Source: a virus. Taken from it: a DNA stretch of 22,663 nucleotides. The stretch is taken from positions 1 to 22,663 of IMG/VR virus record IMGVR_UViG_3300028553_000184. One strand, 5' to 3'. A program made the position numbers and the translations under genes. Below, one piece after another: positions 3,639-22,663 of this stretch (position 1 is its first letter; each line of letters opens with the position of its first letter). The notes beneath the pieces are model-generated. The model was not told where the DNA came from and searched no databases. It saw nothing but the letters and a program-made list of their open reading frames with translations.

Positions 3639-6407
3639 ATGGCTTCACAAAAAGTATTTGTATCACCAGGTGTATTTACATCAGAAAAAGATTTAACCTT
3701 TGTAGCACAACAAGTTGGTGTAACTACATTGGGTCTCGCAGGTGAGACTGTCAAAGGACCAGCTTTCGAACCAATATTCATTACAAATTATAATGAATAT
3801 TTAACAATTTTCGGTGGTTTAAATCCAGAAAAATTTGATAACGGTAAACCAAAATATGAGACATCTTATATTGCAAAAAGTTATTTAACCGAATCAAATC
3901 AATTATTCGTAACTAGAACTCTAGGATTAACTGGTTTTGACGCTGGTGATGCTTGGGCAGTAGTTTCTGAAGCTGGTTACGACCCAACAACAATTATTAC
4001 TGGTGTTACAACCTTATTTACTGCTGATTTTACTGGTAGTACTTACGCGAATATCACAAATATTAACGCACAATATTTATACACATTAGGTTTATTTCCT
4101 AATGGTCCAACATTAACAACAGCTAACGTACCAGGTGTTTCGGTAACATACCCACAAGGTATTGTTTTCAGTAAACAAGCTGGTTCATTTACTGGTGTTT
4201 CAGCAACGGTACTTCTTTCAAATTTATCTGGATTAAGTGGTACTATTTCTGGTACTGTTACAACTTACATTGCAAGTGCTTATACAGCATATGAAGGTAT
4301 GGTATTAGCGGTTTTAAGATCTAGAGGTAGATATATTAGTGATATCCTAAATTGGAGTACAGACCAATCGATTAATGGTTTAGTTGCTAATATGACAGGA
4401 GCATTAACAAATCCTTTAGGACAATTTGTATTATCAGCATCCTCAGTAGGTTTAACTGGTAGTACTTTCACATATGATGTATCTCTTGATAAAACAAGTA
4501 GAAATTACATACCTGGAGTATTAGGTGTTGATTGTCACGATAGAGGTAGTTTAGTTTATGTTGATGAAATTTATACTAACAACACACAAGATTTAATTGA
4601 TAACGGTTACATTATGGGTTTAAAAGAAGATTTAATTTATATACCATATAATAGTAACTATAAACAACAATATCAAACACCAGAAACACCTTGGGTTGTA
4701 TCTGAATTACGAGGTAATGTTGTTGTTAAATTATTTAAATTTATTTCAATTTCTGATGGTTCATCAGCAAATCAAGAAATAAAAATCTCTATTCAAAATA
4801 TTAAGCCAGATACAAAAGAGTTTGATATTATTATTAGACAATGGAATGATACTGACGCAAGACCGTCTATCCTCGAAAGTTACCCTAAGTGTAACATGGA
4901 CCCATCTTCAAACAACTATGTTGCAAGAAGAATCGGTACCGCTGATGGAGAAAACGTATTAAACAGTAGATTCGTAATGTTGGTTATGAACGCTAACGCA
5001 CCAATTGACGCTTTCACAGCTGGTTTTGAAGGTTATATCGTAAGTAATTATGTAGGTACTAACGGTACTGCATTAGCTCCGATGATTGACTATAAGATTC
5101 AATACTTCCCTGAGAATGAAAGAATTAAAAAGGTATACCTTGGTATTACTGATACTTTAGGTATCGACGAAGATATGTTTAACTGGAAAGGTTTAACGAA
5201 CGGTGATAACTATTGGACAGCAACAACTAAAGGTTTCCACATGGATAGTGGAGCTACTGTAGCTGGTAATTTTGAATGTGGTCTTTACCAATTCAGAGAT
5301 GGTGTGGGTATCGAAGGTACTGATTATGAAAGTATTTCAGCAAGAAAATTCACTTTCGTTCCGTATCTTGGATTTGATGGTTGGGATTGTTACAGAAGAA
5401 GTAGGACTAATACTGATAGATATAGAGTTGGTAAAGTTGGTTTCACAACTGGTGTAGCACAAGGACAATTTATCCAATTAGGGCCACAAGACGGTACATC
5501 CGATTTATACGCTTATTGGAACGCTATCAATACATTTAAAAACCCTGAAGCGGTTAACATTAACGTGTTCGCATCTCCTGGGATTGACTATACTGATAAC
5601 AACTATCTTGTTCAAGAAACAATCGATTTAATCGAAGAAGAAAGAGCTGACTCAGTTTATATTGTAACTTCTCCTGAGAATGTTACTTATGATACCGCTG
5701 ACCAATTAGTGGGTATTGGATTTAATTCTGTATCAATTGATACGGCAGATGCACTTGTTAATTTATTAGACGCAGCGGATATTGATTCTAACTACACAGC
5801 CACATACTGGCCTTGGGTACAAGAAAGAGACACTGAAAATACTGTTAACATTTGGTTACCACCAACATTAGAAGTTTGTAAGAATATTGCATTAACCGAT
5901 AATGTCGCTTTCCCTTGGTACGCAGTAGCTGGTTACAATAGAGGTCTTACAAACGCTATTCAAGCTAGAATTAAATTAACTGAAGATGATAGAGATACTT
6001 TATATGAAGGACGTGTTAATCCAATGGCAACTTTCTCAGATGTGGGTGTTGTAATTTGGGGTAATAAAAACTTACAGGTTAAAGATTCTGTTCTTGACAG
6101 ATTAAATATCAGAAGATTATTATTACAAGCTCGTAAATTAATTACAGCAGTTGGTGTTAGATTGTTATTCGAACAAAATGACCAAATCGTTAGAAATCAA
6201 TTCTTGAACTTAGTAAACCCAATCTTGGATAATATCAGAAAAGAAAGAGGTTTAGCAGACTTTAGGGTACAATTATCTAACGACCCAGAAGAAATCGATA
6301 GAAATGAAATGAGAGGTAAGATTTTCTTAAAACCTATCCCATCATTAGAATTCATTATTATCGAGTTCAACGTAACTACAACTGGAGCATCATTTGATAA
6401 TATCTAA
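3639..6407 (+). CDS. Contractile tail sheath protein (T4 gp18-like), enlarged
   Basis: A 922-residue sheath subunit, much longer than T4 gp18 (659). The N-terminus VFVSPGVFTSEKDL with GLAGETVKGPAF (about residues 6-45) and the ITNYNEYLTIFGG loop are classic. A mid-protein signature (about 394-435) reads FDIIIRQWNDTD...ILESYPKCNMDPSS...ARRIG. The C-terminal sheath domain (about 800-922) has RRLLLQARKLITAVG, then VNPILDNIRKERGL and a final LEFIIIEFNVT strand, used in inter-subunit strand exchange. Roughly residues 105-220 are a Gly/Ser/Thr-rich insertion not expected in the sheath core, likely an outward-facing domain. The gene is headed by its own promoter-like motif and followed by a strong terminator hairpin, which fits a highly expressed monocistronic unit. 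Confidence 0.95.
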   Translation: MASQKVFVSPGVFTSEKDLTFVAQQVGVTTLGLAGETVKGPAFEPIFITNYNEYLTIFGGLNPEKFDNGKPKYETSYIAKSYLTESNQLFVTRTLGLTGFDAGDAWAVVSEAGYDPTTIITGVTTLFTADFTGSTYANITNINAQYLYTLGLFPNGPTLTTANVPGVSVTYPQGIVFSKQAGSFTGVSATVLLSNLSGLSGTISGTVTTYIASAYTAYEGMVLAVLRSRGRYISDILNWSTDQSINGLVANMTGALTNPLGQFVLSASSVGLTGSTFTYDVSLDKTSRNYIPGVLGVDCHDRGSLVYVDEIYTNNTQDLIDNGYIMGLKEDLIYIPYNSNYKQQYQTPETPWVVSELRGNVVVKLFKFISISDGSSANQEIKISIQNIKPDTKEFDIIIRQWNDTDARPSILESYPKCNMDPSSNNYVARRIGTADGENVLNSRFVMLVMNANAPIDAFTAGFEGYIVSNYVGTNGTALAPMIDYKIQYFPENERIKKVYLGITDTLGIDEDMFNWKGLTNGDNYWTATTKGFHMDSGATVAGNFECGLYQFRDGVGIEGTDYESISARKFTFVPYLGFDGWDCYRRSRTNTDRYRVGKVGFTTGVAQGQFIQLGPQDGTSDLYAYWNAINTFKNPEAVNINVFASPGIDYTDNNYLVQETIDLIEEERADSVYIVTSPENVTYDTADQLVGIGFNSVSIDTADALVNLLDAADIDSNYTATYWPWVQERDTENTVNIWLPPTLEVCKNIALTDNVAFPWYAVAGYNRGLTNAIQARIKLTEDDRDTLYEGRVNPMATFSDVGVVIWGNKNLQVKDSVLDRLNIRRLLLQARKLITAVGVRLLFEQNDQIVRNQFLNLVNPILDNIRKERGLADFRVQLSNDPEEIDRNEMRGKIFLKPIPSLEFIIIEFNVTTTGASFDNI

Positions 6408-7842: not shown

Positions 7843-8547
7843 TTATTTTTTAATTGTTTTTTGTAAAGGTTTAATAACTTCATCAATAATTCCATACGCT
7901 AAAGCGTCGTCTGCTGATAACCATAAATCACGTGAAGCATCGTCAGCAACTTGTTCACGAGTTTTACCACAATAACCACCCAATAATTCAAAAAGAATTT
8001 CATTGGTTTTTTCCCATTCTTTCATTGTGATACGGGCGTCTTGGATATTACCCATTGCTCCACCACTTGATTGGTGTAACATTGTTTTTGAGAATCTTAA
8101 GGAACTTCTCATACCTTTTGTTCCAGCTCCCAATAAAACTGAACCCATTGATGCCGCCATACCAGTATTAATGGTGGCGATTGGGGCTTTGATGTATTCC
8201 ATTACATCAACAATACTCAAACCTGACTTCACAGACCCACCAGGTGAGTCTATATGCATCGTAATGGTTTTCTTATGGTCTTGTTGGTCTAAGAATAAAA
8301 GTTGTGCCTGTACAACCGTAGACATTCTATCATTTACTGGACCAGCAACCCATAGGATTCTATCCATCATCAATCTAGAAAAGATATCAATTTGTGTTGC
8401 TCTCATTTCTCTTTCTTCCAAGACATAGGGAGTCATACTACCTTGGATTGTCACAGGAACCTCTGACATAAAGTTTTGGTAAGCGTGCAACGTGTTAGAA
8501 CCAACCCCTTGGTCTTTAATTGCAAATTTTTCGAATTCGTTTAACAT
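7843..8547 (-). CDS. clpP: ClpP-like ATP-dependent protease proteolytic subunit
   Basis: A full-length 234-residue S14 serine peptidase. All catalytic elements are present: SPGGSV (residues 101-106), GMAASMGSVLL with nucleophile Ser133, MLHQSSGG with His158, and DASRDLW with Asp207. The N-terminus (NEFEKFAIKDQGVGSNTLHA, then MTPYVLEERE and DIFSRLMMDRI) is of the type seen in Bacteroidota ClpP, so host origin is likely. In cells ClpP forms two stacked heptamers and degrades substrates fed by Clp ATPases; no Clp ATPase gene lies in this window, so it may use the host ATPase or act on its own, for instance in head or tail maturation. It is transcribed against the surrounding tail genes and followed after 4 bases by the lipoprotein gene. 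A TTTATATAAAC element sits directly before the ATG on the minus strand. Confidence 0.93.
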   Translation of the reverse strand: MLNEFEKFAIKDQGVGSNTLHAYQNFMSEVPVTIQGSMTPYVLEEREMRATQIDIFSRLMMDRILWVAGPVNDRMSTVVQAQLLFLDQQDHKKTITMHIDSPGGSVKSGLSIVDVMEYIKAPIATINTGMAASMGSVLLGAGTKGMRSSLRFSKTMLHQSSGGAMGNIQDARITMKEWEKTNEILFELLGGYCGKTREQVADDASRDLWLSADDALAYGIIDEVIKPLQKTIKK

Positions 8548-8667: not shown

Positions 8668-9156
8668 ATGGCAGATTTACTAATGAGGATGCCGGTTCCT
8701 TACGAACCAAAAAAGCAGAACCGATTCATACTTAGATTCCCTTCACCTCTTGGAATTCAAGAGTGGTTTGTGAAAACAGCATCAAGACCTAAAATTTCTC
8801 AAGAGGAAACAGAAATTCAATTTCTTAACACATCAACTTGGGTAATTGGTCGTTTTACTTGGGATACTATTGACGTTACATTCCGTGACCCAATTGGTCC
8901 TTCAGCGGCACAAGCAATTATGGAGTGGGTACGTCTTCACTCTGAATCAGTAACAGGTCGTCAAGGTTATGCAGCTGGTTATAAGAAAGACATTGAATTA
9001 GAATTATTAGACCCAACAGGTGTTGTAATTGAAAAATGGATTCTTCAAGGTACAATGTTAACAAACGTTGACTTTGGTGGGTTAGATTATTCAACTTCTG
9101 AAATTGCTGAAATTACTGGAACTTTACGTTTCGATAGAGCTATTCACGTATTCTAA
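8668..9156 (+). CDS. Tail tube protein (T4 gp19-like)
   Basis: The 162-residue length matches gp19 (163 in T4). Family landmarks are in order: KKQNRFILRFPSPLGI (residues 15-30), WFVKTASRPKISQEE (33-47), WDTIDVTFRDPIGPSAAQAIMEW (about 64-86), TGRQGYAAGYKKDIELELLDPTG (about 95-117), and a C-terminal strand ITGTLRFDRA. These stack as hexameric rings to form the inner tube through which DNA passes. It has two promoter-like motifs upstream and a terminator 24 bases downstream, so it is its own unit, as befits a major structural protein. Confidence 0.93.
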   Translation: MADLLMRMPVPYEPKKQNRFILRFPSPLGIQEWFVKTASRPKISQEETEIQFLNTSTWVIGRFTWDTIDVTFRDPIGPSAAQAIMEWVRLHSESVTGRQGYAAGYKKDIELELLDPTGVVIEKWILQGTMLTNVDFGGLDYSTSEIAEITGTLRFDRAIHVF

Positions 9157-9179: not shown

Positions 9180-9209
9180 AATCCTCACTCAAAAGGTGGG
9201 GATTTTTTA
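9180..9209 (+). terminator. Rho-independent terminator after the tail tube gene
   Basis: AATCCTCAC (9180-9188) pairs with GTGGGGATT (9196-9204), one G-T pair included, around TCAAAAG, followed by a run of T. The right arm contains a GTG at 9196 that would extend the next ORF; being terminator stem, it is unlikely to be a start codon. Confidence 0.88.
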
Positions 9210-9221
9210 TGATTCCATCGA

Positions 9222-9229
9222 TATTTATA
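9222..9229 (+). promoter_or_regulatory. TATTTATA motif only 5 bases before a start codon
   Basis: GATATTTATAAAGAAATG: the octamer ends 5 bases before the ATG at 9235. If it acts like a -10 element, the transcript would be leaderless or nearly so. Confidence 0.5.
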
Positions 9230-9234
9230 AAGAA

Positions 9235-9726
9235 ATGAAAAACTTAATCCGTAAGATATTAAAGGAACAAGAAAACGAGTTTGACTGGGTGAAAGATATA
9301 AACCCTAGTGAGGCTGAAAAACTTGTTATACAACCTTTTAGAGATATGGATTACGAATATAGTACCGATTTTGTAAGTGAAATGGTACCTTTATTAATAG
9401 AAAAGGGTATCACAAGACCAGAAGATTTAACTGAAATCGGTAGGGAAATTAAAAAGGAATTTAGTCGTTCTTATTATAGAGCTTATGATAGTGGATATGA
9501 TAGTGGACAAAATGACTGTGGTTGTGATTATTGTTGTGATGACATGTATTATATCGATGATGTGAGAGAAAAAGAAAAAGAGGCTCGTGAAGAAGGTTAT
9601 GAGGAGGGTCAAGAGACGGGTTATGAAGCAGGAAAATCTGAAATGCAAGATAAAATTGAGGAATTAGAAGAACAAATTGAAGAATTACAGGCTAGATTAG
9701 CTGGTAGTAACGATGATTTAAATTAA
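9235..9726 (+). CDS. Cys-cluster/coiled-coil protein with ΦΦxE leader, copy 1
   Basis: A 163-residue protein of unknown function from the ATG at 9235; the GTG at 9196 lies inside the terminator stem and is rejected. The leader MKNLIRKILKE (1-11) is nearly the same as in the next gene and as in the C39-GNAT protein. It continues FDWVKDI, a helical region, then a Cys cluster CGCDYCCDD (about 100-108) that could bind a metal, and a strongly charged C-terminal half: EKEKEAREEGYEEGQETGYE, followed by heptad-like EELEEQIEELQARL, a coiled coil. The whole arrangement is repeated in the next gene, so the pair arose by tandem duplication. The leader may direct packaging into the prohead. Confidence 0.8.
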   Translation: MKNLIRKILKEQENEFDWVKDINPSEAEKLVIQPFRDMDYEYSTDFVSEMVPLLIEKGITRPEDLTEIGREIKKEFSRSYYRAYDSGYDSGQNDCGCDYCCDDMYYIDDVREKEKEAREEGYEEGQETGYEAGKSEMQDKIEELEEQIEELQARLAGSNDDLN

Positions 9727-9737
9727 TAAGAAGGTTA

Positions 9738-10184
9738 ATGAGAGATTTAATTAAGAAAATATTAAAAGAACAGGAAGACCATTTTGAATGGGTTAAGGAT
9801 CTTGATGTTCATATTGCCGAAAAAGAGATTAAAAAAGATTTCATAAAAGCTGACCATGATTATGACTTTGGGGGTGAGGGACTTTATCAAATGTTGATTG
9901 GTGCTGGTGTCCACGATTTAGAAAAATTAAAAGAAATTGGGGAATACGTATATCAACAAGCTGATAATACATACACTTACGCGCAAGATAATTACGACTA
10001 TAGTTGTGATGGATGTTGTGACGATTATGTATATGAAGATGTGGTTTCTGATAGAGAAGATACAGCACGTGAAGAGGGTAGGGAAGAAAGGCAGGAAGAA
10101 ATTGATGACCTAAAAAGTCAAATAGATGAACTAAATTCAACAATTGAAGAATTACGCAATCAAATTATAAGTGGTGAGGAGTAG
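9738..10184 (+). CDS. Cys-cluster/coiled-coil protein with ΦΦxE leader, copy 2
   Basis: A 148-residue paralogue of the preceding protein. Shared landmarks in order: leader MRDLIKKILKE (1-11), FEWVKDLD (15-22, FDWVKDIN in copy 1), a middle region ending LKEIGEYVYQQA (ITEIGREI-like position in copy 1), the Cys cluster SCDGCCDD (three Cys rather than four), and AREEGREERQEE followed by a coiled coil IDDLKSQIDELNSTIEEL. The gene begins 11 bases after copy 1 and its end overlaps the start of the C39-GNAT gene by 11 bases, so the three are one translational block. Loss of one cluster Cys compared with copy 1 means that metal binding, if any, may differ. Confidence 0.8.
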   Translation: MRDLIKKILKEQEDHFEWVKDLDVHIAEKEIKKDFIKADHDYDFGGEGLYQMLIGAGVHDLEKLKEIGEYVYQQADNTYTYAQDNYDYSCDGCCDDYVYEDVVSDREDTAREEGREERQEEIDDLKSQIDELNSTIEELRNQIISGEE

Positions 10185-11544
10185 AATTAAAAAAATATTA
10201 TCCGAAATACAAGTCCCACATCACTATCAACCAACAGGAAATAGTTGTGGTCCGACTTGTTTAAAGATGGTTCACGATTTTTTTGTTGGTAACAGGTTTA
10301 AAATATCTGATATATGTCGTGCTTGTGGTACTGATTGGGTTGTTGGAACACCTCCTGATAGAATGGTCAAAGGTCTTAAATACATGGGTATTGAATATAT
10401 TGAACATATGAGTGAAGAAGATCCTTATCAATCACTTAAAGACTCTATCGACAAAGGACACCCTTGTGTTGTTAGAGCAAACGTTCAAGGAACACCACAT
10501 TGGATTATTGTTGTTGATTATGACCATGATACACTTATGGTAAACGATCCTTGGTTGGGTAGATTACTTTATGAAATTGATGGATTTGATGAGATTTGGT
10601 TCTCTGGTAGAGACAAAATACGTGAATATTTTTATTATGAAATAACAAATGCCAATGAAGATATATATCCAGATGATGATATAGAAGATGAAGAGTTTCC
10701 AGAAGATGAGAGAGAAGATTTTATGACAGAAGAATCTGAAACCACCGAAAAAGAATGGTGGGAGGATTGGACTGACGAGGATATTAGTTATTTTATTCAT
10801 GAACTACAATCTGTTCATGGGGTTACAGCAAATGTCGCTGAAGTACAAGAATTTTCAAATGAGGTTGATGTAACGGATTTATCTATTGAACAATTTGCAG
10901 AAGAATTTGTTAGTTGGTTAAAAGATGGTGATGATTATGTTAGTGATGAGGAGGAAGAGGTTGATGGTGATCCAAACCAATTAGAAATAGAATTTCCAGA
11001 AGATAAAAAAACATATTCTGAAGGAATAGAAATATCTAATTTTGAAGATGAAGATGAGATTCTTGACGCCTTAAGAGTTGGTTTGAAGGTTTTTGAGGGT
11101 CAAATGACACCAAAGGCATTAATAAAATACCTTTCTGAGGCCACCGATTGGGATATATCTGTTAAAGCAACTTATCAAGGTAAGGTGGTTGGATTTTATT
11201 TTTTAGCTGAAAATCAAATTGCTGATTATATGTTACACTATATGCAAAGAGATTATAATTGTTACTCGCCAGAAGAATGTGAAGAAAAAAACCCAGGTTC
11301 AATTAAGGTTAATCCAATGGAATTCCAAAATTTAGATGGTGTTGAGGGCGTGGCTTTAGGTATTGACCCAGAGTATAAAGGGTTAGGTATTGGTAAAAAA
11401 TTAATAGAATACTCACAAAGTTTACCCTATGATTATCTTTGGGGTCAACAATACGAACATTTAGAAAACATTGACCATTGGACTAAGAGACGTGAAATCG
11501 CAGCTTACTTTCCAGGATTATACCTAACATATCAAATGTTATAA
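10174..11544 (+). CDS. C39-like cysteine peptidase fused to GNAT acetyltransferase, with ΦΦxE leader
   Basis: The GTG at 10174 (or 10171) must start this gene: no in-frame ATG occurs before the catalytic motif, and from 10174 the leader M-R-S-R-I-K-K-I-L-S-E aligns residue for residue with the 11-residue leaders of the two preceding genes. Domain 1 (about 13-150) is papain-fold/C39-like: QPTGNSCGPTC with Gln19 and nucleophile Cys25, GTPHWIIVVDYD with His109, and NDPW with Asp125. A very acidic linker (about 155-290) follows. Domain 2 (about 290-456) is GNAT-like: a strand pair VKATYQGKVVGFYFL and the acetyl-CoA loop IDPEYKGLGIGKKLIEY (397-413, G403-G405-G407). No transporter gene is nearby, so bacteriocin export is unlikely. 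Both domains look intact, so a packaged, host-modifying enzyme is an attractive inference. Confidence 0.82.
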   Translation: MRSRIKKILSEIQVPHHYQPTGNSCGPTCLKMVHDFFVGNRFKISDICRACGTDWVVGTPPDRMVKGLKYMGIEYIEHMSEEDPYQSLKDSIDKGHPCVVRANVQGTPHWIIVVDYDHDTLMVNDPWLGRLLYEIDGFDEIWFSGRDKIREYFYYEITNANEDIYPDDDIEDEEFPEDEREDFMTEESETTEKEWWEDWTDEDISYFIHELQSVHGVTANVAEVQEFSNEVDVTDLSIEQFAEEFVSWLKDGDDYVSDEEEEVDGDPNQLEIEFPEDKKTYSEGIEISNFEDEDEILDALRVGLKVFEGQMTPKALIKYLSEATDWDISVKATYQGKVVGFYFLAENQIADYMLHYMQRDYNCYSPEECEEKNPGSIKVNPMEFQNLDGVEGVALGIDPEYKGLGIGKKLIEYSQSLPYDYLWGQQYEHLENIDHWTKRREIAAYFPGLYLTYQML

Positions 11545-12236: not shown

Positions 12237-13256
12237 TTACCAATTAAATCTGTCTTCATCCCAGTGACGACCATAATAAGAAGATCCACCCTTATCACGG
12301 TTTGTATATAGATACTCACCACTATTAAAAAGGTCGGCCCAATCATCATATTCTTTTTCATCACCATCTTTCTCCTTACCTTCAGTAAGAAGTTTTTGAC
12401 CACCAGTATCGGGTTTTTGGGTCTTTTTATAACTACCAGTACCGTAACCACCATTCCAAGAATATGTTCTTTCTTCTTTTGGGTTTTCGTATCTGTTTTC
12501 ACCTAGTTGTTCAAGTAATTTCAAACCAAGTTCATAACCGTTTTGAACATCATCAACTTTTACATATTCATTGTCAGAATGCATTCTGTAATAACCAGCT
12601 GCTAAATTCAAACATGCGATGTTAAATTTCTCAAATATTTGCCAAACATCGGTATAAGGGTGATAAGCCCAATTTGTAATACCATGTTCTCTGATTAAAC
12701 CAGAAACCTTATCAGAAAATTCTGATTTTTGGTTGAACAAGTATCTACCCATTAATGTTAAACTCATTGAATCCCCTTCAGGAGAATCGTATTGAATTAC
12801 ATAACCAACATTCTTGAAGAACTCTGGGTCAGCGTATTGACTACCCTTACAACCAATTTCTTCCGAAACAAATAAAGCTATTTTAACGTTTGGTAATGTG
12901 TCTAACATTTCAAGACATAAGTACACACCACATTTATCATCACCACCACATCCTGATGGCATGTTGTTCGTTTTATCGATACCTCTAAGAATAGTTTCAC
13001 CATTCTTTTCTTCCTGAATGATAACTAAGTTTTCATTCACCTTATGTACTGTGTCTGTGTGTGCAATAAAACAAGGATACCATTCTGCGGTACCTTTCGT
13101 CACATAAACATTCCCCCACTCGTCAACGGTCGGTTCATACCCTTTTTCTGTTAACGTCTTTCTCAAATACTCAATCATGAGTGCTTCATCCCTAGAATAA
13201 GTAGGAACTGAAAGCACTTCTTTTAAACGATTAAGTTTATCTTCTGTCATTTTCAT
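12237..13256 (-). CDS. M20-type zinc metallopeptidase with C-terminal extension
   Basis: A 339-residue protein with the metal and catalytic residues of the M20 clan (peptidase T/carboxypeptidase G2 type): HTDTV (His66, Asp68), GCGGDDKCG (Asp106/107), SEEIGCKGS (Glu132 general base and Glu133), YDSPEG (Asp157) and MHSDNE (His226). This set suits a two-zinc exopeptidase acting on short peptides. The dimerisation domain typical of many M20 enzymes is not clearly seen and the catalytic core ends near residue 250. The last 85 residues are low-complexity, rich in Gly, Tyr, Asp and Lys (SWNGGYGTGSYKK, GGSSYYGRHWDEDRF). It sits alone on the minus strand between + tail genes, closed by a bidirectional terminator, so it looks like an acquired cassette. 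An in-frame ATG two codons downstream is an equally possible start. Confidence 0.85.
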   Translation of the reverse strand: MKMTEDKLNRLKEVLSVPTYSRDEALMIEYLRKTLTEKGYEPTVDEWGNVYVTKGTAEWYPCFIAHTDTVHKVNENLVIIQEEKNGETILRGIDKTNNMPSGCGGDDKCGVYLCLEMLDTLPNVKIALFVSEEIGCKGSQYADPEFFKNVGYVIQYDSPEGDSMSLTLMGRYLFNQKSEFSDKVSGLIREHGITNWAYHPYTDVWQIFEKFNIACLNLAAGYYRMHSDNEYVKVDDVQNGYELGLKLLEQLGENRYENPKEERTYSWNGGYGTGSYKKTQKPDTGGQKLLTEGKEKDGDEKEYDDWADLFNSGEYLYTNRDKGGSSYYGRHWDEDRFNW

Positions 13257-13418: not shown

Positions 13419-14198
13419 ATGTCAAAACAAAATCAACAACAAGCTCAAGATATTCAATTCCAAGCTCCGTTTGACGTTCTACCTTTACCATCTAAGGGGT
13501 TATTGTATCCTGGACAGGTTGGTACAGTTAAAGTGGAATATATGACAGCAATGGATGAGAACATCCTAACATCACCTAACTTAATTAAGAATGGTAAAGC
13601 CATTGAAATATTGTTAGAAAGAAAGATTAAAGAATCCCCAGTACCTTTCGACCAATTATTAGTTGGCGATAGAAACGCCATTATGATTTGGTTAAGAGCA
13701 ACAGGATACGGTGAGATGTACCCAGTTAAAATAACAGATCCTACAAGTGGTGTTGAATTTGAACATGAATTCGATTTAAGTGCTTTAGCCTCAAAAGAAT
13801 TACCAGATGGTGTAACACCAGATGAAAGAGGTGAGTTCTCTTTTGATTTACCTAGAAGTAAGAAAAAAATTAAATTTACATTATTAACTGTTGGTGATGA
13901 ACGTTCTATTGTTAATAGGGCTGATAAATATGAGAAAGCAACAAAGTCTCAAATTTCAAACACATTAACATATAGGTTACAAGCACAAATTAAAGAAGTT
14001 GATGGTAATAGGGATTCTAATTACATTCAACAATTCGTTAATGTGATGCCAGCATTCGATTCTCTTAAATTTAGAGAATATTCAGATAACATTGAACCAG
14101 GAATTGAGATGTCGGCCGAAGTGGAGGGACCGACAGGCACATTTCAAGCTCCAATTACCCTCGGACTCAACTTTTTTTGGCCTAACGTCAGAGTATAA
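13419..14198 (+). CDS. Baseplate protein of the T4 gp26/T4_baseplate type
   Basis: A 259-residue protein with the family signature near the N-terminus: LPLPSKGLLYP (residues 22-32), VEYMTAMDENILTSPNLIKNG (about 40-60), then KAIEILLERKI and LLVGDRNAIMIWLRATGYG (about 80-100). This block, LPSKG...MT..DE.IL.SP.L...GKAI..LL and LL.GDRN..., is what I recognise as the T4 baseplate (gp26) domain. The C-terminus ends GLNFFWPNVRV. In T4, gp26 is needed to assemble the baseplate hub. The gene has its own promoter-like motif and is followed by a short ORF in the +1 frame, which remains open across the end of this gene. A run of seven T (14172-14178) sits in the last codons and would allow a slip into that frame. 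Confidence 0.85.
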   Translation: MSKQNQQQAQDIQFQAPFDVLPLPSKGLLYPGQVGTVKVEYMTAMDENILTSPNLIKNGKAIEILLERKIKESPVPFDQLLVGDRNAIMIWLRATGYGEMYPVKITDPTSGVEFEHEFDLSALASKELPDGVTPDERGEFSFDLPRSKKKIKFTLLTVGDERSIVNRADKYEKATKSQISNTLTYRLQAQIKEVDGNRDSNYIQQFVNVMPAFDSLKFREYSDNIEPGIEMSAEVEGPTGTFQAPITLGLNFFWPNVRV

Positions 14199-14428: not shown

Positions 14429-16300
14429 ATGAGCATTAATACCTTAATTAAAAAAGTCACATCAGACAAGATACTGTTAGAATATATCATGACTGAAGCT
14501 AAACCAACTTCAGTTACTGGTGATGAGGCTGCAGCATCTGGAGCTAGAGGTGAGATGGCCGCTGGAAGAGCTAAAGAAATAATGGCTCGTATGGGTGTTA
14601 ATTTACCAGAACTAGACACTATTTTTTCAATACAACAATTATCTGTTGAACCTTTTAAATTAAGTTACGTTTTACAGGATTTATTAGATAACCCAGAGGA
14701 ACTAACACTACCAAAATCACAAACATTTACTGGATTAGCTAGGGTTGTTAAAGATTCTAATAATTTAATTTTAGAATTCAAACCACAAAATAGTGAATCA
14801 ACTTTTTTAATAAAATTTACTGAAAGTAATGAGGTCTATACTGTATTACCAGGTACCAAGAAAAAAATAATTGCTTTAGCTGTGGGTGAAAGTGAGGGTA
14901 AATTTTATACGGTAGAGTTTGGTCCTTCTTTTGTTACCACAATAAAAAGTGGTGATTTAGAAACAGAGGGTGAGGAATACAAAGTGGGTGATACGGTTGA
15001 TTTTACAACTGATGGTGGAGAGAACGGTAAAGGTGGTATTACTAAAATAGACGGTGATAATTTTACGATAGGTGATGGTAAGGGTGGTACCGTTATCGTT
15101 AATAGAAAAAATATTAAAAAAGGTGGAGAAGATAATAATTCTACTCAGAATGAAAAGGAAGGTAATTTTTATAACGGAAAAGATTTAAAGGAGGTTAACG
15201 CTAAGCTTTCCAGTACGAAAGATAAAGCTCGTTGGTTTAACATATTAACAGCGTACAAAGACGACCCAGAATTCCAAAAGATTTTTTTAGATGCTATTAT
15301 TGATGGGACAAAATCTATTAAAATAAATCAACAACCACTTTTAACAGCCTTAAAGGGTTTAAAATCACAAGGGTTATTAGAAGCACCAACTTCAATGTCT
15401 GGTAATCAAAGAAAATATTTAAAGGTTAAACTAAACCTACAGAATTTTATGTTCGATGTTTTTTCTATTTTCGCTAAGGTAGCAAAAAATGGTAGAAACT
15501 CACAAACTTTTCAAGTTATTAAAGATTTCTATAAACAACTATACTTTATAGCTACTAAGGGTAAAACTAGTATTGCCGATGTACAAACAAGAAAACAACT
15601 TTGGAAAAAATTAGTAGGAAGTTTTAAAAACTTTTTAGTTAGTTTTTCAAAACTATCCGAAATGATTAAAGGTAATGGGAAACAAAATAGTGGTAAGAAT
15701 GTGAAAGTAAAAAACATGCCAAAGGCGTCAATGTCAAATACTGGAGTGGCAGAAGATTTTTATCGTTACATATCAGATAATACAGAGTTAATATTTGAAG
15801 CTGACGAAGATCAAAAAAAATCTAATACAACAGCAAAAATATATTTAAAGGGTATAGTTTTAGGTCCAAAGGGTAAAGCTAAAAAAGATGGTGATATTGA
15901 GACCACTTATGGCGGTGGGGGTAAAGGGGGTGAACAAGGTAAGCCGTTAACCAATACCTCAATGGAGGATAAGAAATTTTACCCAGTTATTGGTAGGTTA
16001 TATGATGTTGAAAAATCTGATACCCCTTCCGATTTAAACGTAAAAGAAATAATAAATTTATTTAATCAGGGTGATCAAAACCTAGAGATTAGAAAAAGTA
16101 TGAGTGGTGATAAAGGTGAAAACTTTTCTATCATTATCAAAAAATCAGGATCTGGTGATGGGTTTTTAATGGTAAAACCAAAAGATGGTGGTCTAATTAA
16201 TTGGACCTCTTCTAAACCTATTGATGTTTTAATAGGTAAGAAAGCTTTGGGTTATCCACAAGAACCTTTTGAAGGGGTCTTAATACTAAAAAATAGATAA
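14429..16300 (+). CDS. Large protein of unknown function with ΦΦxE leader
   Basis: A 623-residue protein I do not recognise. The first 23 residues form a basic helical leader ending Y-I-M-T-E|A (I20-M21-T22-E23), which is a good match to a T4-type prohead-protease site. An Ala/Gly-rich helix follows (GDEAAASGARGEMAAGRAKE, about 31-50). Around residues 180-235, EYKVGDTVDFTTDGG...GGITKIDGDNFTIGDGKGG has the look of a small SH3/KOW-like barrel. A helical middle (about 330-430, LNLQNFMFDVFSIFAKVAK and LGKSFKNFLVSFSKL-like text) precedes a low-complexity Gly/Lys linker (about 485-510) and a C-terminal strand-rich domain. It overlaps the tape measure start by one base (TAATG), so it is coexpressed with the tail genes. 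It could be a virion component, a chaperone for the tape measure, or a packaged protein. Confidence 0.75.
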   Translation: MSINTLIKKVTSDKILLEYIMTEAKPTSVTGDEAAASGARGEMAAGRAKEIMARMGVNLPELDTIFSIQQLSVEPFKLSYVLQDLLDNPEELTLPKSQTFTGLARVVKDSNNLILEFKPQNSESTFLIKFTESNEVYTVLPGTKKKIIALAVGESEGKFYTVEFGPSFVTTIKSGDLETEGEEYKVGDTVDFTTDGGENGKGGITKIDGDNFTIGDGKGGTVIVNRKNIKKGGEDNNSTQNEKEGNFYNGKDLKEVNAKLSSTKDKARWFNILTAYKDDPEFQKIFLDAIIDGTKSIKINQQPLLTALKGLKSQGLLEAPTSMSGNQRKYLKVKLNLQNFMFDVFSIFAKVAKNGRNSQTFQVIKDFYKQLYFIATKGKTSIADVQTRKQLWKKLVGSFKNFLVSFSKLSEMIKGNGKQNSGKNVKVKNMPKASMSNTGVAEDFYRYISDNTELIFEADEDQKKSNTTAKIYLKGIVLGPKGKAKKDGDIETTYGGGGKGGEQGKPLTNTSMEDKKFYPVIGRLYDVEKSDTPSDLNVKEIINLFNQGDQNLEIRKSMSGDKGENFSIIIKKSGSGDGFLMVKPKDGGLINWTSSKPIDVLIGKKALGYPQEPFEGVLILKNR

Positions 16301-19059
16301 TGGCGAACGAAGGTAACTTTAAAAGAAACAAAAAGGACGAAATAGAGTTTCTCAAAATTCAACAAGACATTAAGGAGAACTTTAAGAGTCAGGTAGACTC
16401 CATACAATCATATGCTGAATGGCAAGCAAAGATTGGTAAGATATGGAAAGAACTTAAAACAATGCAAGCAGAAATCCTCGAATTAGAAAAAGAGGGTACA
16501 AAGGAGTCGTTAAAAAAGGCTAAGGTTTTAAGAAAAGAATACGACCAACTATTAGAAGTTAATAAAGAATTAAGGAAACAAGGTTCCCTACTTAAAGCTA
16601 GCGCTAACATTTTAGACAAACAGTTTTTAGGTGTAGTAGGTAATATTTTAACTAAGTGGTTTGATTTTGATGAGGCTGTTCGTAAAACAGCTAATACCAT
16701 GGGTATATCTGGTCAAAGGATGAGTGTCATGCAAACCAACATCATTAATGCCGGAATGAAAACCGCTGCGTGGGGTGTATCTGCTACAGCTCTAGCTGAG
16801 GCACAAGGTTCTTATTCTGACGAATTAGGTCGTTCCGTTATATTAAGTGAACAAGCCCTTGAGAATATGGCTATACTAGGAACCAAAACTGGTTTGGGTG
16901 TTGATGGTATTTCTCAAATGGCAGCTCAAATGGAGGCGTTTGGTTTGGGAGCGACAAAGTCTGTTGAGTTGGTAACACAACTTTCTTCTGATGCTGAATC
17001 AATAGGTGTTAACTCAGCCAAGGTACTTAAAAGTTTTCAATCAAATTTAGGTTTAATGAATAAATTAAACTTTAAGAACGGTGTTAAAGGAATGATGGCA
17101 ATGTCCAAATATTCTGAGAAATATAAATTAGATATGAATTCTGTGGCAGCGGTAGCTGATAAAGTATTCAGACCCGAGGGTGCTATTGAGGCCGCGGCCC
17201 AATTACAAGTCTTAGGTGGTTCGTTATCCTCATTAGGTGACCCATTCCAATTAATGTATAAAGCACGTAATTCACCAGAGGAGTTGGCTAAAAGTTTAAC
17301 TAAGGCTGCGACAGCCTCAGCAACTTTTGATAAAACCACGGGTGAGTGGAAGGTTAACGCCTATGAATTAGATAGGTTAAAAGAAGCTGGTGCCGCTTTA
17401 GGTATTAGTTATGAAGAGTTAGTGAAAACAGCTAAACAGGGTGCTAAAATAAACATGTTTGAGGGTTTATTAAAAGGTAAGGGATTAGATCAAGAACAGA
17501 TAGATATGTTAAGTGGGTTAGCTGATGCTGACGGTACAATTCAAGTAGGGTTTAATAAAGATGGTACTGCTAACATAAAAAAACTGTCTGAACTTACTAA
17601 GGGTGATGCTGAAGTTTTAATGGAAAAAAGAAAATTAGCTGATAAAAGTCAGAAGGATGCTGTTAGTATGAGACAACAGTGGCAGGGTGTGTTAGATCAG
17701 TTAATGATGGCAACATGGCCTTTGTTACAAGCTTTACAGGAATATCTTAAACCCGGCGTTGATGTTTTGACAACCAAAATCACTGAATTTATGGGTTCCA
17801 TTAAAACTTGGACTAAGGGTATCGGTATATTCCTAGGTGCTGTAACCCTACTTTGGGCTGGTATGCAGGTCTTTAAAGCTATAGATATTGTTAAGGGGTT
17901 TTTTGGAACTGGGAAACATTTTAAAGCTGGATTAGAAATGGCGAAAGGTTTCCAGGCGGGAACCACAGGTAAAGGTGGACTATCTACAAAAGGTTTCCAG
18001 GCGGGAACCACAGGTAAAGGTGGACTATCTACAAATACTAAAGACTTTTTAAAAAGTCAATCTGGTGGTTTTAAGAGAAACGCTGGGGGGGGTTTAACTA
18101 GAGTAACACAAGGTCCTGCAATAGATAATGGGCCGGGTCAGATGACAAAGGGTCTTAATCCAATGGATATGATTAAGGGGGCTGCCGCAATTTTAATCTT
18201 GTCGGCCGCATTATTTGTGTTTGCTAAAGCCCTACAAGAATTTGATAAATTACAAAACGGTTGGGAAACATTGGCTCAGGCCGCTGTCGGTTTGACGGTG
18301 TTGGGTGTTGCAGCTTGGTTAATCGGTAAAGCCTCTGGTTCTATGATTGAAGGGGCTATTGCGATAACACTACTTGGTGCCTCATTAATACCGTTTGCTT
18401 ACGGTATGAGTCTTATGCAGGGTCTATCTTGGGAGTCTCTAGCGATAGCTGGGGTTGCGTTAGTGGTTTTCACAGCCGCAATATTTGGTTTGGGTTTACT
18501 GATGGCAACTGGTATTGGAGCTGTTTTATTTGGTGCTGGTATTATAGCGATGATAGCTTTAGGGGGTGCCTTATTAGTATTGGGGTTAGGATTAAGTGCT
18601 GTCACGGCACCATTAATTCAATTTAGTACAGCTATCGGTGGTGATGGTTCTGGTTTAATTTCCGCGGGTACTGGTTTTATGGTAATGGCAATGGGTGTTG
18701 AAAAATTAGGTCAAGCTATGTTTGGTTTAACCACTACAGCCATAGTTGGATTACCAATTATAATGATGTTAACAAAAATGGGTTCTACACTTGCCTCATC
18801 TGTAGGTGCGATAAATAGTGTAGATACCGACAAATTAAACTCTTTAAAGGAACTTGCACAATGGTTGTCATTGTTAGGTGGTACCACAACAATTAAATTC
18901 GATGAGTCTCTTACAGTGGATGGGGAAATAGAATTAACGGGTAAGAATGGTAGTAGTACGGAAATAGACCTTAGTAAATTAAATTCTGCACAAAAAGAAG
19001 AACTTGCCAAAATGATTTTCTCCACACACGAATATTCCAAAAGAGGGATGGCTAGTTAA
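16300..19059 (+). CDS. Tape measure protein
   Basis: A 919-residue tape measure, identified by composition and context: a charged coiled-coil N-terminus (residues 1-100, EILELEKEGTKESLKKAKVL), a helical Ala/Gly-rich middle (MANTMGISGQRM-like segments to about 470), and a C-terminal half with five or more long hydrophobic segments, such as IGIFLGAVTLLWAGMQVF (about 507-524), AAAILILSAALFVFAKAL (about 629-646), and LAIAGVALVVFTAAIFGLGLL (about 713-733). Such proteins set tail length and enter the host membrane during DNA injection. The start overlaps the previous stop by one base. Between residues 548 and 578 a 15-residue unit (KGFQAGTTGKGGLST) is present twice in perfect tandem. No lysozyme or peptidase domain was seen in it. 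Confidence 0.9.
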   Translation: MANEGNFKRNKKDEIEFLKIQQDIKENFKSQVDSIQSYAEWQAKIGKIWKELKTMQAEILELEKEGTKESLKKAKVLRKEYDQLLEVNKELRKQGSLLKASANILDKQFLGVVGNILTKWFDFDEAVRKTANTMGISGQRMSVMQTNIINAGMKTAAWGVSATALAEAQGSYSDELGRSVILSEQALENMAILGTKTGLGVDGISQMAAQMEAFGLGATKSVELVTQLSSDAESIGVNSAKVLKSFQSNLGLMNKLNFKNGVKGMMAMSKYSEKYKLDMNSVAAVADKVFRPEGAIEAAAQLQVLGGSLSSLGDPFQLMYKARNSPEELAKSLTKAATASATFDKTTGEWKVNAYELDRLKEAGAALGISYEELVKTAKQGAKINMFEGLLKGKGLDQEQIDMLSGLADADGTIQVGFNKDGTANIKKLSELTKGDAEVLMEKRKLADKSQKDAVSMRQQWQGVLDQLMMATWPLLQALQEYLKPGVDVLTTKITEFMGSIKTWTKGIGIFLGAVTLLWAGMQVFKAIDIVKGFFGTGKHFKAGLEMAKGFQAGTTGKGGLSTKGFQAGTTGKGGLSTNTKDFLKSQSGGFKRNAGGGLTRVTQGPAIDNGPGQMTKGLNPMDMIKGAAAILILSAALFVFAKALQEFDKLQNGWETLAQAAVGLTVLGVAAWLIGKASGSMIEGAIAITLLGASLIPFAYGMSLMQGLSWESLAIAGVALVVFTAAIFGLGLLMATGIGAVLFGAGIIAMIALGGALLVLGLGLSAVTAPLIQFSTAIGGDGSGLISAGTGFMVMAMGVEKLGQAMFGLTTTAIVGLPIIMMLTKMGSTLASSVGAINSVDTDKLNSLKELAQWLSLLGGTTTIKFDESLTVDGEIELTGKNGSSTEIDLSKLNSAQKEELAKMIFSTHEYSKRGMAS
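17944..18033. repeat. Perfect 45-base tandem duplication inside the tape measure gene
   Basis: The unit at 17944-17988 is repeated without change at 17989-18033. It begins AAAGGTTTCCAGGCGGGAAC and encodes KGFQAGTTGKGGLST twice, in frame. Two more bases after the second copy also match, so the exact boundary is uncertain by two bases. No substitution between copies points to a recent event. Confidence 0.97.
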
Positions 19060-19188: not shown

Positions 19189-22100
19189 ATGCCGTCAAAT
19201 CAAATAAACCCAAATAACTATAATATTGATAACTTTGATAGTGGTATCTTAGGACCAATAACTGATAATAATTTCAGGGATTTCCTATTGGGTCATAATT
19301 TAAAAGATATTAACCCAATTATTAACACGGCTTTAGGATCTTCAATATCAAACGATAAGGGTGCAGAGTATAACGTATCAGAAAGTACTTTTAACGTCAC
19401 AGACGTACCAGATTTACAAACTGTAGCGGTAACACCATCTCTTTATAATAATCTAACTAGTCCACTCCCTGACGGTATTACGAAGAATCCAACAGAGACT
19501 GAGTTATCTGCTTGGCATCCAGATTACAGCTTTATATTTTCCCAAGGGTTTCCATCACAAGGAACTTCTTATGGTGTACCACAAACCTTTAAATTAGGTT
19601 TTGCTGGTAATGTTGAGGAATGGGTTAATGAAGGGGGATATACATCAACCGTCCATGAGATTAGGGATTTAAAAATGTTCGCTAGGGAGAATAATAAATA
19701 CGGCCCAGCTGAAATTATTGCATATAATGACCCAGATAATCCAGGTATTAATACGGGTTTCATTCAATACAACGACAAAATACAATTAGACTTTAGAGAA
19801 ACATATTTAAATAGAACTTTAGGTGTTGGTGGTATACCCTTCAGTACTTTATCATCAGGAATTAACTATAAACCAGACGGTCAAAACATTTCCGAATTGG
19901 ATACTATCGCCAGAAAAAGAAGGGGTGAGGAACTAAAGAATAGAATAAAACTAAATTTTGTTGATAATACGGTTGGCGCTATCAATACAAGTCCTTTTGG
20001 TCTTTTAGCTGGTGGTAATTTAATCGAAAGAAATTATACCATTACAGTCCCTAAAACAGGTCTTGGAAAGGTAGCTGAATTTACAGCCAAATTAGCTGGA
20101 TTTAACTTACCGACAAGTATCATACCACAAGACGCTTTTGGTGGATATGGTGTGGTTCCAGATCCAAATAACCCAGATATAACCAATGAACTATTGGATT
20201 ATACAGGTGCCGGACAGAAATCGTTATTATTTGATGCTCTCTATATTAACAAATACGGTCCAGTATTGGGGTCATCATATACTACACCCACTAACGCAAC
20301 AGTTAAAAAGAATTTAGCTGGAGCGGGACAACCACCAAGTACAATAAATTATTTATCACCAGCACCAACAGACCCCACTAATACTAGAAACCCTTCTGTA
20401 ATAGAAGATATTAATGACAAAGTAAAAAGTATTTTTGGTGGTAATAAAACCCCAGTAAAACCAGGTCCTGATTTTAACACATTAGACCCTACCACACCAT
20501 CTTTAACAATTAGTAGTGATGGAAAAAGTGTGGTGGATCGTAACGGTTTTGACACCCTATTAAATAACGTTACAGACACTTGGGATGTAAGGGGACCGTC
20601 ACCCATGGGTAGTGGTGGTGAGTTTGATAGAGGTGGTATTGGGACGGCGATGCCTGCTGGGATATTACCAGACTTCCATCAACCGTTAGATAATGGTATG
20701 TACTGGGGATTTAGAAAAAACCCATTTAAAAAAGGTATTTTAAAATACACACAAGATTTAGTTAATAATTCTATAACTAAAAAGGGTACTGCTGGTCAGT
20801 ATATTGGTGTTATAAATGATGATTCTAACTATAAGTTTGATGGAAAACATGATTTCTATTCAAATGGTAATACAACATTAACACAAGAGGGTGACGCTTA
20901 TTGTCGTTCTTGGTCAGTTAGAAGGCCTTATAAAGATTTTGGTCATTTAATTAGAAGTGAAAAAAATTGGTGGAGAAACGTAGATGAAAGAGGTTTAACC
21001 AAAAATATGACGTTAACTGAAACTGGTATACCTAAAATTGCGTGGGATTCTGCGGATAACACAAATTATAAAGATTCACTACCAACTAGAGCTCAACAAT
21101 TACAAAAGGAGAATTTAGACAACGCGACTAATTTAACTGCTATAAAAGGGTTGTTAGTACCATATATGTTATCTATTGAAAATCTAGCTTGGGTAGATGC
21201 ACCACAATACAACTACTTACCTAATTCCGAAAAAGGACCTAATAGGGGGAGAATTATGTGGTTTCCACCATACAATTTAGATTTTAATGATAACACATCT
21301 GTTAGTTGGGATGCTACCACTATGGTTGGAAGGGGTGAACCTATATACACATATAATCACACTGAACGTTCTGGAAATTTAAGTTTTTCTATCGTAGTAG
21401 ATCACCCAGCGGTGTTAAATCAAATAAAAAAGGATTTCGAAACAAATGCGTTAACCGATGATTTTGTACATTCATTTTTTGGTGGGTGTGCGGATTTAAA
21501 AAGTAAGTTTAAAGATTTTCTTCCTGAAGAAATTAAAGTGCCAGATCCAGCTCCATGTAAAGATTGTTTACCACCTAATGAAACACCAGTAAAAGTTGAT
21601 CCACCAAAAGAACCACCTATAAATAATATAAATATATTTTTCCAGAATGCTAGAACAGATGAAAAATGTCCAGCAAATAAGGGATGTACCAGTGTTAATA
21701 CAACACAACTTGGTAGATCGGTATTTTTAATAGATTTAGCAAACCCAAATGGTTATGAGGTGGGCCCTTTGGACTGTCCTAATAGTTCAAGAGCTGGTTT
21801 AAATGAGGGTAAAGAGGATGATTTAAATAATTTAGCTAAATTTCTGGTAACATCTGACGGTAAAAACTATACAATAAAAATTAATGGTTATTGTTCTGGT
21901 ACCGCATCAGGTGGTTATAACAAAAAATTGGGAAATGATAGAGCTTTAGCAACTAGAGACTATCTATTAACTAAAATGCAAGATTACGAATTAAATCAAG
22001 GGGGTCCACCTAAGTTAGAGGGTACTGATAAAACTTACCCTTCTGAAATTGTAATTGAAAATAGTAAGGATAGATGGGTAATGACAAGTGATGGTGAGAG

Positions 22101-22663
22101 TGGAGCGCCACCAGATACCCAAGACGAGGATTGGAAAGTGGAGGCGGCAATAGATCCGTGTAGTGCAAACGGTAAAAATGAGAATTCTTTAAATTCTAGA
22201 CAAGCTAGAAAAGTAACCATTAAATTAGAGAAAAACCCAGTACTCCAATCTAATCTACTTAACGAAGTTAAAAGTGAAGAGAATAAATCGATTATTGAAA
22301 AGAACAAAGAAGCTCAACAATTAGCTGATGCTAAAAAACAAATAGCAAAGCTTTTTATAAACGAATCGGATTATTTTATGGAGATGAAACATAAAGATCC
22401 ATTTATATACAATTCAATGAAAGATAGATTGGATAATTTTCATCCGGCATTCCACGCTATAACCCCAGAGGGGTTTAACTCTAGGTTAACCTTCTTACAA
22501 CAATGTACTAGACAAGGACCACAATTAATGGATCCTACCTCACCACAAAATATGGTATTTGGTAGACCACCAGTTTGTGTGTTAAGAATCGGTGATTTCT
22601 ATCATACTAAAATCATTATTGATAGTATAAACTTTACCTATGATCCTTTAATATGGGATTTAA
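19189..22663 (+). CDS. Large baseplate protein with an inserted OmpA-like peptidoglycan-binding domain, 3' end beyond the window
   Basis: Open from the ATG at 19189 to the right edge (1158 complete codons). The first 600 residues are a Pro/Asn/Gly-rich structural part. From about residue 655 a baseplate-type domain begins: LVPYMLSIENLAW, then RGRIMWFPPYNLDF and MVGRGEPIYTYNHTERSGNL (about 710-735), a pattern seen in baseplate proteins after the tape measure. This domain is interrupted by about 280 residues and resumes near residue 1085 with HPAFHAITPEGFNSRLTFLQ, then FGRPPVCVLRIGDFYH and INFTYDPLIWDL. The insert holds an OmpA-C-like domain (about 812-1015): NINIFFQNA, YTIKINGYCSGTASG, NKKLGNDRALATRDYL (911-926, Arg918) and NSRQARKVTIKL (1002-1013). 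The usual Asp of the 'GHTD' turn is replaced by Cys-Ser. Several Cys (APCKDC, DEKCPANKGC) suggest disulphides. It probably contacts the cell wall at infection. Confidence 0.82.
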   Translation, partial: MPSNQINPNNYNIDNFDSGILGPITDNNFRDFLLGHNLKDINPIINTALGSSISNDKGAEYNVSESTFNVTDVPDLQTVAVTPSLYNNLTSPLPDGITKNPTETELSAWHPDYSFIFSQGFPSQGTSYGVPQTFKLGFAGNVEEWVNEGGYTSTVHEIRDLKMFARENNKYGPAEIIAYNDPDNPGINTGFIQYNDKIQLDFRETYLNRTLGVGGIPFSTLSSGINYKPDGQNISELDTIARKRRGEELKNRIKLNFVDNTVGAINTSPFGLLAGGNLIERNYTITVPKTGLGKVAEFTAKLAGFNLPTSIIPQDAFGGYGVVPDPNNPDITNELLDYTGAGQKSLLFDALYINKYGPVLGSSYTTPTNATVKKNLAGAGQPPSTINYLSPAPTDPTNTRNPSVIEDINDKVKSIFGGNKTPVKPGPDFNTLDPTTPSLTISSDGKSVVDRNGFDTLLNNVTDTWDVRGPSPMGSGGEFDRGGIGTAMPAGILPDFHQPLDNGMYWGFRKNPFKKGILKYTQDLVNNSITKKGTAGQYIGVINDDSNYKFDGKHDFYSNGNTTLTQEGDAYCRSWSVRRPYKDFGHLIRSEKNWWRNVDERGLTKNMTLTETGIPKIAWDSADNTNYKDSLPTRAQQLQKENLDNATNLTAIKGLLVPYMLSIENLAWVDAPQYNYLPNSEKGPNRGRIMWFPPYNLDFNDNTSVSWDATTMVGRGEPIYTYNHTERSGNLSFSIVVDHPAVLNQIKKDFETNALTDDFVHSFFGGCADLKSKFKDFLPEEIKVPDPAPCKDCLPPNETPVKVDPPKEPPINNINIFFQNARTDEKCPANKGCTSVNTTQLGRSVFLIDLANPNGYEVGPLDCPNSSRAGLNEGKEDDLNNLAKFLVTSDGKNYTIKINGYCSGTASGGYNKKLGNDRALATRDYLLTKMQDYELNQGGPPKLEGTDKTYPSEIVIENSKDRWVMTSDGESGAPPDTQDEDWKVEAAIDPCSANGKNENSLNSRQARKVTIKLEKNPVLQSNLLNEVKSEENKSIIEKNKEAQQLADAKKQIAKLFINESDYFMEMKHKDPFIYNSMKDRLDNFHPAFHAITPEGFNSRLTFLQQCTRQGPQLMDPTSPQNMVFGRPPVCVLRIGDFYHTKIIIDSINFTYDPLIWDL

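Follow-up and report, generated by a model that had tools for sequence, protein, structure and literature searches.

Our analysis showed that the baseplate-type protein encoded at the end of an uncultivated viral contig carries an OmpA-C-like domain, and that this domain lies within an insert that interrupts a beta-barrel of the protein. The DNA analysed, referred to here as the window, is the 22,663-bp viral record IMGVR_UViG_3300028553_000184 in its full length, and its features are collected in Table 1. Both the identity of the domain (residues 812-1015), confirmed by profile searches and structure prediction, and its position between the two barrel halves are shared by a large family of viral relatives. 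We offer the fuller picture tentatively, as possible rather than probable: an OmpA-type domain in the tube-initiator ring, with a specificity changed by the exchange of Asp for Ser, would bind a peptidoglycan peptide while crossing the wall, would be carried by a widespread group of large, uncultivated phages with contractile tails and would be shared with a Bacteroidales envelope family by transfer.

Table 1. Features of the window, in order of position.
Feature	Position	Strand	Residues and basis
Tail sheath protein (contractile tail)	3639..6407	+	phrog_23, E 4e-51
Tail tube protein	8668..9156	+	phrog_4542, E 5.5e-30
T4_baseplate family protein (hub-type)	13419..14198	+	PF12322, E 1.6e-8; phrog_150
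Probable tape measure protein, directly upstream of the OmpA-bearing gene	16300..19059	+	position; L015 counterpart
Baseplate / putative tail-tube-initiator protein with OmpA-like insert	19189..22662	+	1158 aa read
Tube-like beta-barrel, first half	21241..21405	+	residues about 685-739 (GRIMWFPPY ... GRGEPIYTYNHTERSGNLSFSIVVDH)
Insert (helices, OmpA-like domain, helices)	21406..22461	+	residues about 740-1091
OmpA-C-like domain	21622..22233	+	residues 812-1015; PF00691, AF2 topology, Foldseek
Pocket core, strand then YNKKLGNDRA helix	21868..21978	+	residues 894-930
Ser903 (Asp position)	21895-21897	+	
Asn911	21919-21921	+	
Leu914	21928-21930	+	
Arg918	21940-21942	+	
Helices that follow the OmpA domain and return to the barrel	22240..22434	+	residues 1018-1082; AF2
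Tube-like barrel, second half (cut off)	22462..22662	+	residues 1092-1158 (TPEGFNSRLTFLQQCTRQGP ... RIGDFYHTKIIIDSINFTYDPLIWDL)

The original prediction placed an OmpA-C-like fold at 21622-22230, that is, residues 812-1014 of the open reading frame, and this was borne out by Pfam as well as by AF2 and Foldseek. The Pfam OmpA model (PF00691) spans residues 868-928 with an E-value of 1.4e-7 and 32.2 bits in a scan of the whole protein, against a gathering cut-off of 27.2 bits, and two further scans gave 35.3 and 35.5 bits against the same cut-off. When the relatives' inserts were scanned singly, 50 of 72 matched PF00691 at E<0.01, and in the remaining ones OmpA is visible only by the family profile or by motif. 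The profile of 71 relatives matches about 40 PDB chains of the OmpA/Pal family (best E 7e-8), and a profile restricted to the domain reaches 7.6e-10 against the PDB. From an alignment of 71 rows, AF2 modelled the entire protein poorly on the whole (mean pLDDT 56) but the OmpA domain well, with means of 84-95 in most blocks of residues 871-970 and of 79-89 around 1001-1020. The predicted strand and helix order of OmpA runs through residues 813-1015 (beta 813-817, alpha 875-886, beta 894-900, alpha 908-936, beta 963-967, alpha 1001-1006, beta 1008-1015), and 50 of the 50 Foldseek matches listed for the domain in the PDB are of the OmpA/Pal/MotB/TagL/TssL/PorE type or similar. Structure prediction covering residues 800-1030, put forward earlier as a check, thus returned an OmpA/Pal/MotB fold and not another one, and the residues named at the time (N911, L914, R918, C902-S903 and SRQARK 1003-1008) are as stated. 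A chance resemblance or an isolated oddity is ruled out by about 170 relatives and the profile statistics. Pfam scans of the window proteins and of the relatives' inserts found no LysM domain.

The insertion point lies directly after the strand ending SFSIVVDHP. The first barrel half is near-invariant among relatives and forms long strands in predicted models, and every relative that has both barrel halves carries an insert of 227-758 aa between them, at the same place; about 170 relatives from other contigs all have an insert at this site. Three homologues whose barrels are homologous to that of the window protein are without the OmpA domain, namely those of the cultured Flavobacterium phage immuto (immuto35A_235), Microcystis phage Mel-JY01 (WWT39329) and the uncultured 484-kb phage LR756508. 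The immuto protein is 716 aa long and encoded at the corresponding gene position, and only about 27 residues separate its barrel halves at the insertion site. For profile comparison, its C-terminal domain was aligned with those of viral-contig relatives, Mel-JY01 and LR756508. The first barrel half matches this profile with a probability of 96 and an E-value of 2.4e-9, and the second matches it downstream of the first (E 7e-4, probability 26); none of 150 column shuffles was as good in either case. Protein 048 of SP-15, of the contractile-injection tube type, is also collinear with both halves, more weakly than immuto, and here column shuffles did as well in 0 of 150 trials for the second half and 1 of 150 for the first. 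The claim that the domain interrupts a baseplate-type protein therefore stands, since the halves flank the insert in all two-half relatives and immuto aligns to both, and the comparison with homologues lacking the insert has defined its edges. The counter-view that the stretch is an integral baseplate domain holds within the clade, every member of which has the insert, and fails for the wider family. As far as can be read from these sequences, the OmpA domain is an insertion relative to immuto, Mel-JY01 and LR756508 and a constant part of the protein in the clade to which the window belongs.

The open reading frame of the interrupted protein runs off the end of the contig, so the 3' end of the gene is missing; complete open reading frames of relatives encode about 1060-2200 aa, compared with the 1158 aa read here. 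It follows genes for a contractile tail whose nearest annotated relatives, judged by the tail sheath, are Mel-JY01, immuto and SP-15. The L015 gene at the place of the tape measure gene matches the tape measure family phrog_4372 (E 4.8e-7). The order tape measure, OmpA-bearing gene, gp25-like wedge protein (phrog_7145) was read in the window up to the OmpA-bearing gene and, beyond it, in L015, L009, L013 and immuto, which shares the gene order of the window's clade. The OmpA-bearing gene accordingly occupies the position of a tube-initiator gene, after the tape measure and before the gp25-like and wedge genes. A model of the corresponding region of L007 (581 aa, mean pLDDT 73.5) has long strands on either side of the insert, and Foldseek matched it weakly (E 0.03-1) to the tube or baseplate initiators of A-1(L), AFP, Milano, PVC, AlgoCIS and pyocin R2, in a list that also contains MotB; matches in BFVD include contractile-injection tube proteins. 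The insert flanks may thus be described as two halves of one beta-barrel that resembles contractile-tail tube initiators, with a weak structural match and with the C-terminal part absent in the window, and the protein is likely a baseplate protein of the tail-tube-initiator type from a large phage with a contractile tail.

Known sheath families match the 922-aa tail sheath protein only over about residues 605-920, and a 457-aa protein (10171-11544, +) combines a C39-like peptidase part with a GNAT acetyltransferase-like part. A ClpP-like protease (7843-8547) and an M20/M42-type peptidase (12237-13256) are encoded within the tail cluster on the opposite (-) strand. The adjacent open reading frames 9196-9726 and 9738-10184 (+) look paralogous, each with a Cys-rich stretch (CGCDYCCDD and CDGCCDD).

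In canonical OmpA-C domains, an Asp binds the amine of diaminopimelate (DAP) and an Arg its carboxylate. It had been predicted that the window protein keeps the Arg, as Arg918, and has lost the Asp, and both parts agree with the alignment, in which the Arg is found in 71 of 71 relatives and the Asp in one. Position 903 is Ser in 67 relatives, Thr in 2, Asn in 1 and Asp in 1, and the Asp that would contact the DAP amine (TD motif) is hence absent in 70 of 71. The exchange is real, but it is not a quirk of this phage, being clade-wide and common to a cellular Bacteroidales family. The sole relative with Asp at the pocket is L067:8949-9332 (GQTDNSASPEANMSISKRR). The Asn-x-x-Leu-x-x-x-Arg pattern of DAP-binding OmpA-C domains is retained with its carboxylate Arg: Leu914 is conserved in 69 of 71 relatives, Asn911 in 68 and Phe818 in 67, and the last-strand R1007 in all 71. 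Ranked by conservation, the top seven of 142 insert columns are R918, R1007, N820, L914, N911, F818 and S903. PorE holds a DAP peptide by Phe541, Asp576, Asn584, Ile587 and Arg591 (PMC7192894), which correspond to Phe818, Ser903, Asn911, Leu914 and Arg918, all five among these seven columns. Three of the five also correspond to Asn494, Leu497 and Arg501 of TagL, which are needed for interaction with the cell wall and whose mutation abolishes it (PMC8253398). Canonical DAP binding is not assumed here, because Tp0624, with Ala at the Asp position, does not bind DAP (PMC5104382). Nor does pocket conservation, as read from an alignment, by itself prove ligand binding, since these are general OmpA-family positions too. 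The fold alone seems not to force the pocket residues, since a sister clade whose inserts measure 227-261 aa, and to which a Prochlorococcus single-cell contig belongs, keeps the last-strand motif (RRVDI or similar in many members) while its pocket is eroded: reading its sequences by eye, we found Asn lost, Ser often lost and Arg lost in several members.

Lytic enzymes are the usual explanation for how the tube tip of a contractile tail copes with the cell wall, and the original prediction saw in the OmpA-like domain an alternative to a tail lysozyme. Pfam and phrog scans found no lysozyme among the window proteins, as this idea would have it, but the window ends inside the OmpA-bearing gene, before the gene two downstream, and the absence is therefore uninformative. 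In relatives, the gene two downstream encodes a domain of a peptidoglycan peptidase, either M23 (L023; just under the Pfam cut-off in L007 and L016) or a VanY domain (L015 and L022), and VanY is found at the same place in the OmpA-less immuto. These peptidases led us to reject the domain as a substitute for a tail lytic enzyme, a reading that we consider very improbable. This gene two downstream is large in L013 (12715-17889) and L011 (about 15599-17881), where its product ends C-terminally in an intein/Hint domain; in L013, the next open reading frame begins right after it.

A role for the domain can be proposed from these data, and we put at about even the chance that it acts at the tube tip, binding a peptide of the cell wall with a changed specificity, alongside a peptidase. 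The OmpA-like domains would form part of a ring at the distal end of the tube and would move with the tube at contraction. The pocket (Phe818, Ser903, Asn911, Leu914 and Arg918) would most likely bind the stem peptide at a part that bears a carboxylate. Arg918 would clamp this carboxylate, and Ser, standing where an Asp normally binds the DAP amine, may alter or relax specificity. The tip might in this way be held or guided at the wall, beside the M23- or VanY-type peptidase encoded two genes downstream in relatives.

A rival explanation that we regard as a serious contender, though with less than an even chance, is that the domain is a structural connector, joining the ring of the tube initiator to the wedges or the sheath initiator, and has no cell-wall ligand, its pocket binding a partner baseplate protein or being just the core of the fold. 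There are precedents for this in LysM domains: that of A-1(L) gp16 has wedge, sheath-initiator and tube-initiator subunits all around it (PMC10966104), that of AlgoCIS Alg7 reaches the wedges and has its linker cleaved (PMC8894135), and that of Mu gp43 is counted as a structural part (PMC11915804). By analogy, contacts of LysM with wedge proteins in other tube initiators and baseplates show that such folds can be structural. The presence of the insert in every clade member, the sister clade with its last-strand motif and eroded pocket, and the loss of the DAP-binding Asp also favour a connector; this loss and the generic OmpA-family nature of the conserved residues, both read from the alignment, speak against wall binding. 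On the other hand, the rank of the five pocket positions among the most conserved of the insert is less easily explained by a connector, contractile-tail genes are present in immuto and Mel-JY01, which lack the domain, and tethering at both ends would make a fixed connection to the wedges awkward at contraction. We lean slightly towards the wall role because a doubly tethered domain cannot be freed by one cut.

The closest cellular counterparts found come from Bacteroidales. Searching 31 genomes of the order of a Bacteroidales MAG with the phage domain profile yielded as best matches six proteins that share an FDNDxP-like start, a long linker from beta1 to alpha1 and Ser at the Asp position. 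TPR-propeller parts of the PorE/CHU_0125-like kind are present in five (L122, L123 and L125-L127), and one is fused to TonB_C (L124). They score 77-105 bits with the whole-insert profile, compared with at most 42 bits for other OmpA domains among the fetched loci, and in the reverse direction a profile of the six recovers 47 of the 91 phage proteins (E<1e-3). Tree building nested the cellular domains of the six within the phage ones (support 100/98) and away from other OmpA domains, although the short domain, few columns and long branches make this placement uncertain. We read these sequence data to mean that the domains share an ancestor and passed between phage and host, in one direction or the other. 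The cellular relatives are predicted envelope proteins, not tail proteins; those that match NF052230 (PorE, cut-off 600 bits) score 118-167 bits, far below the cut-off, as they also fall far below that of the CHU_0125 NCBIfam model, and the phage insert has no match to NF052230. The features shared with this PorE-like family, together with the nesting, could mean that the phage domain mimics a cellular one and binds a host envelope protein (e.g. a PorE-like complex), not the wall itself; given the uncertainty of the tree, we judge this unlikely. DUF1573 (HYDIN-like Ig) lies C-terminal to the OmpA domain in L125 and L126, and also at residues 1386-1468, the C-terminal end, of the OmpA-bearing protein of L015 (7998-12440; E 1.7e-4, below cut-off). 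Two further cellular proteins, L106 and L108 from a Bacteroidales MAG, combine an outer-membrane-beta-barrel-like N-terminal part with an OmpA domain with GYASPEG, and these too have Ser at the OmpA Asp position.

Scans of viral contigs, which reach 380 kb, found homologues numbering at least in the hundreds, of which we examined 91 sequences from the first three scans (the window's included) and 80 from a fourth, some sharing a record. Four family proteins had no match by tblastn among the cultured phages of the INPHARED set, and cultured relatives were reached through the tail sheath instead of the OmpA-bearing protein. Matches to canonical OmpA in INPHARED were set aside as largely records resembling bacterial chromosome; of two such records inspected, Microcystis phage MaAM05 has its OmpA between pomA and fliM, and MT835480 carries no annotation. 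Rumen MAG contigs, the link to immuto and the cellular relatives suggest a Bacteroidota host, although one clade occurs in a Prochlorococcus single-cell contig.

These observations place a wall-binding-type fold in the putative tube-initiator ring of hundreds of phages, with a peptidase gene close by in relatives. The defined pocket and the cultured relatives without the domain, which provide a natural control, make it directly testable whether such a domain grips peptidoglycan or only scaffolds, a question that extends to the LysM domains which other tube initiators carry. In the literature searched, which was outside subscription journals, we found no precedent for OmpA in a phage baseplate or inserted in a tube-initiator barrel. 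Compared with the envelope proteins OmpA-C/Pal/MotB (PorE 6TOP, TagL 7BBA, A. baumannii OmpA 3TD5), the phage copy, part of a tail protein, shares the fold order, the N-x-x-L-(S/A/G)-x-x-R core, the last-strand Arg (R1007) and the Arg, Asn, Leu and Phe of the pocket, but has Ser at the pocket Asp and long insertions that separate beta1 from alpha1 and alpha2 from the last strand. That a tube initiator can carry a peptidoglycan-binding-type fold is itself already known from LysM, and the window protein is akin in this to the tube initiators AlgoCIS Alg7, Mu gp43 and Milano gp25 and to the baseplate proteins A-1(L) gp16 and T4 gp53, which carry such a fold on a tube-initiator or hub-wedge protein. 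In Alg7, however, LysM is C-terminal and the linker to the barrel is cleaved, whereas the phage protein has an unrelated fold inside the barrel, tethered at both ends.
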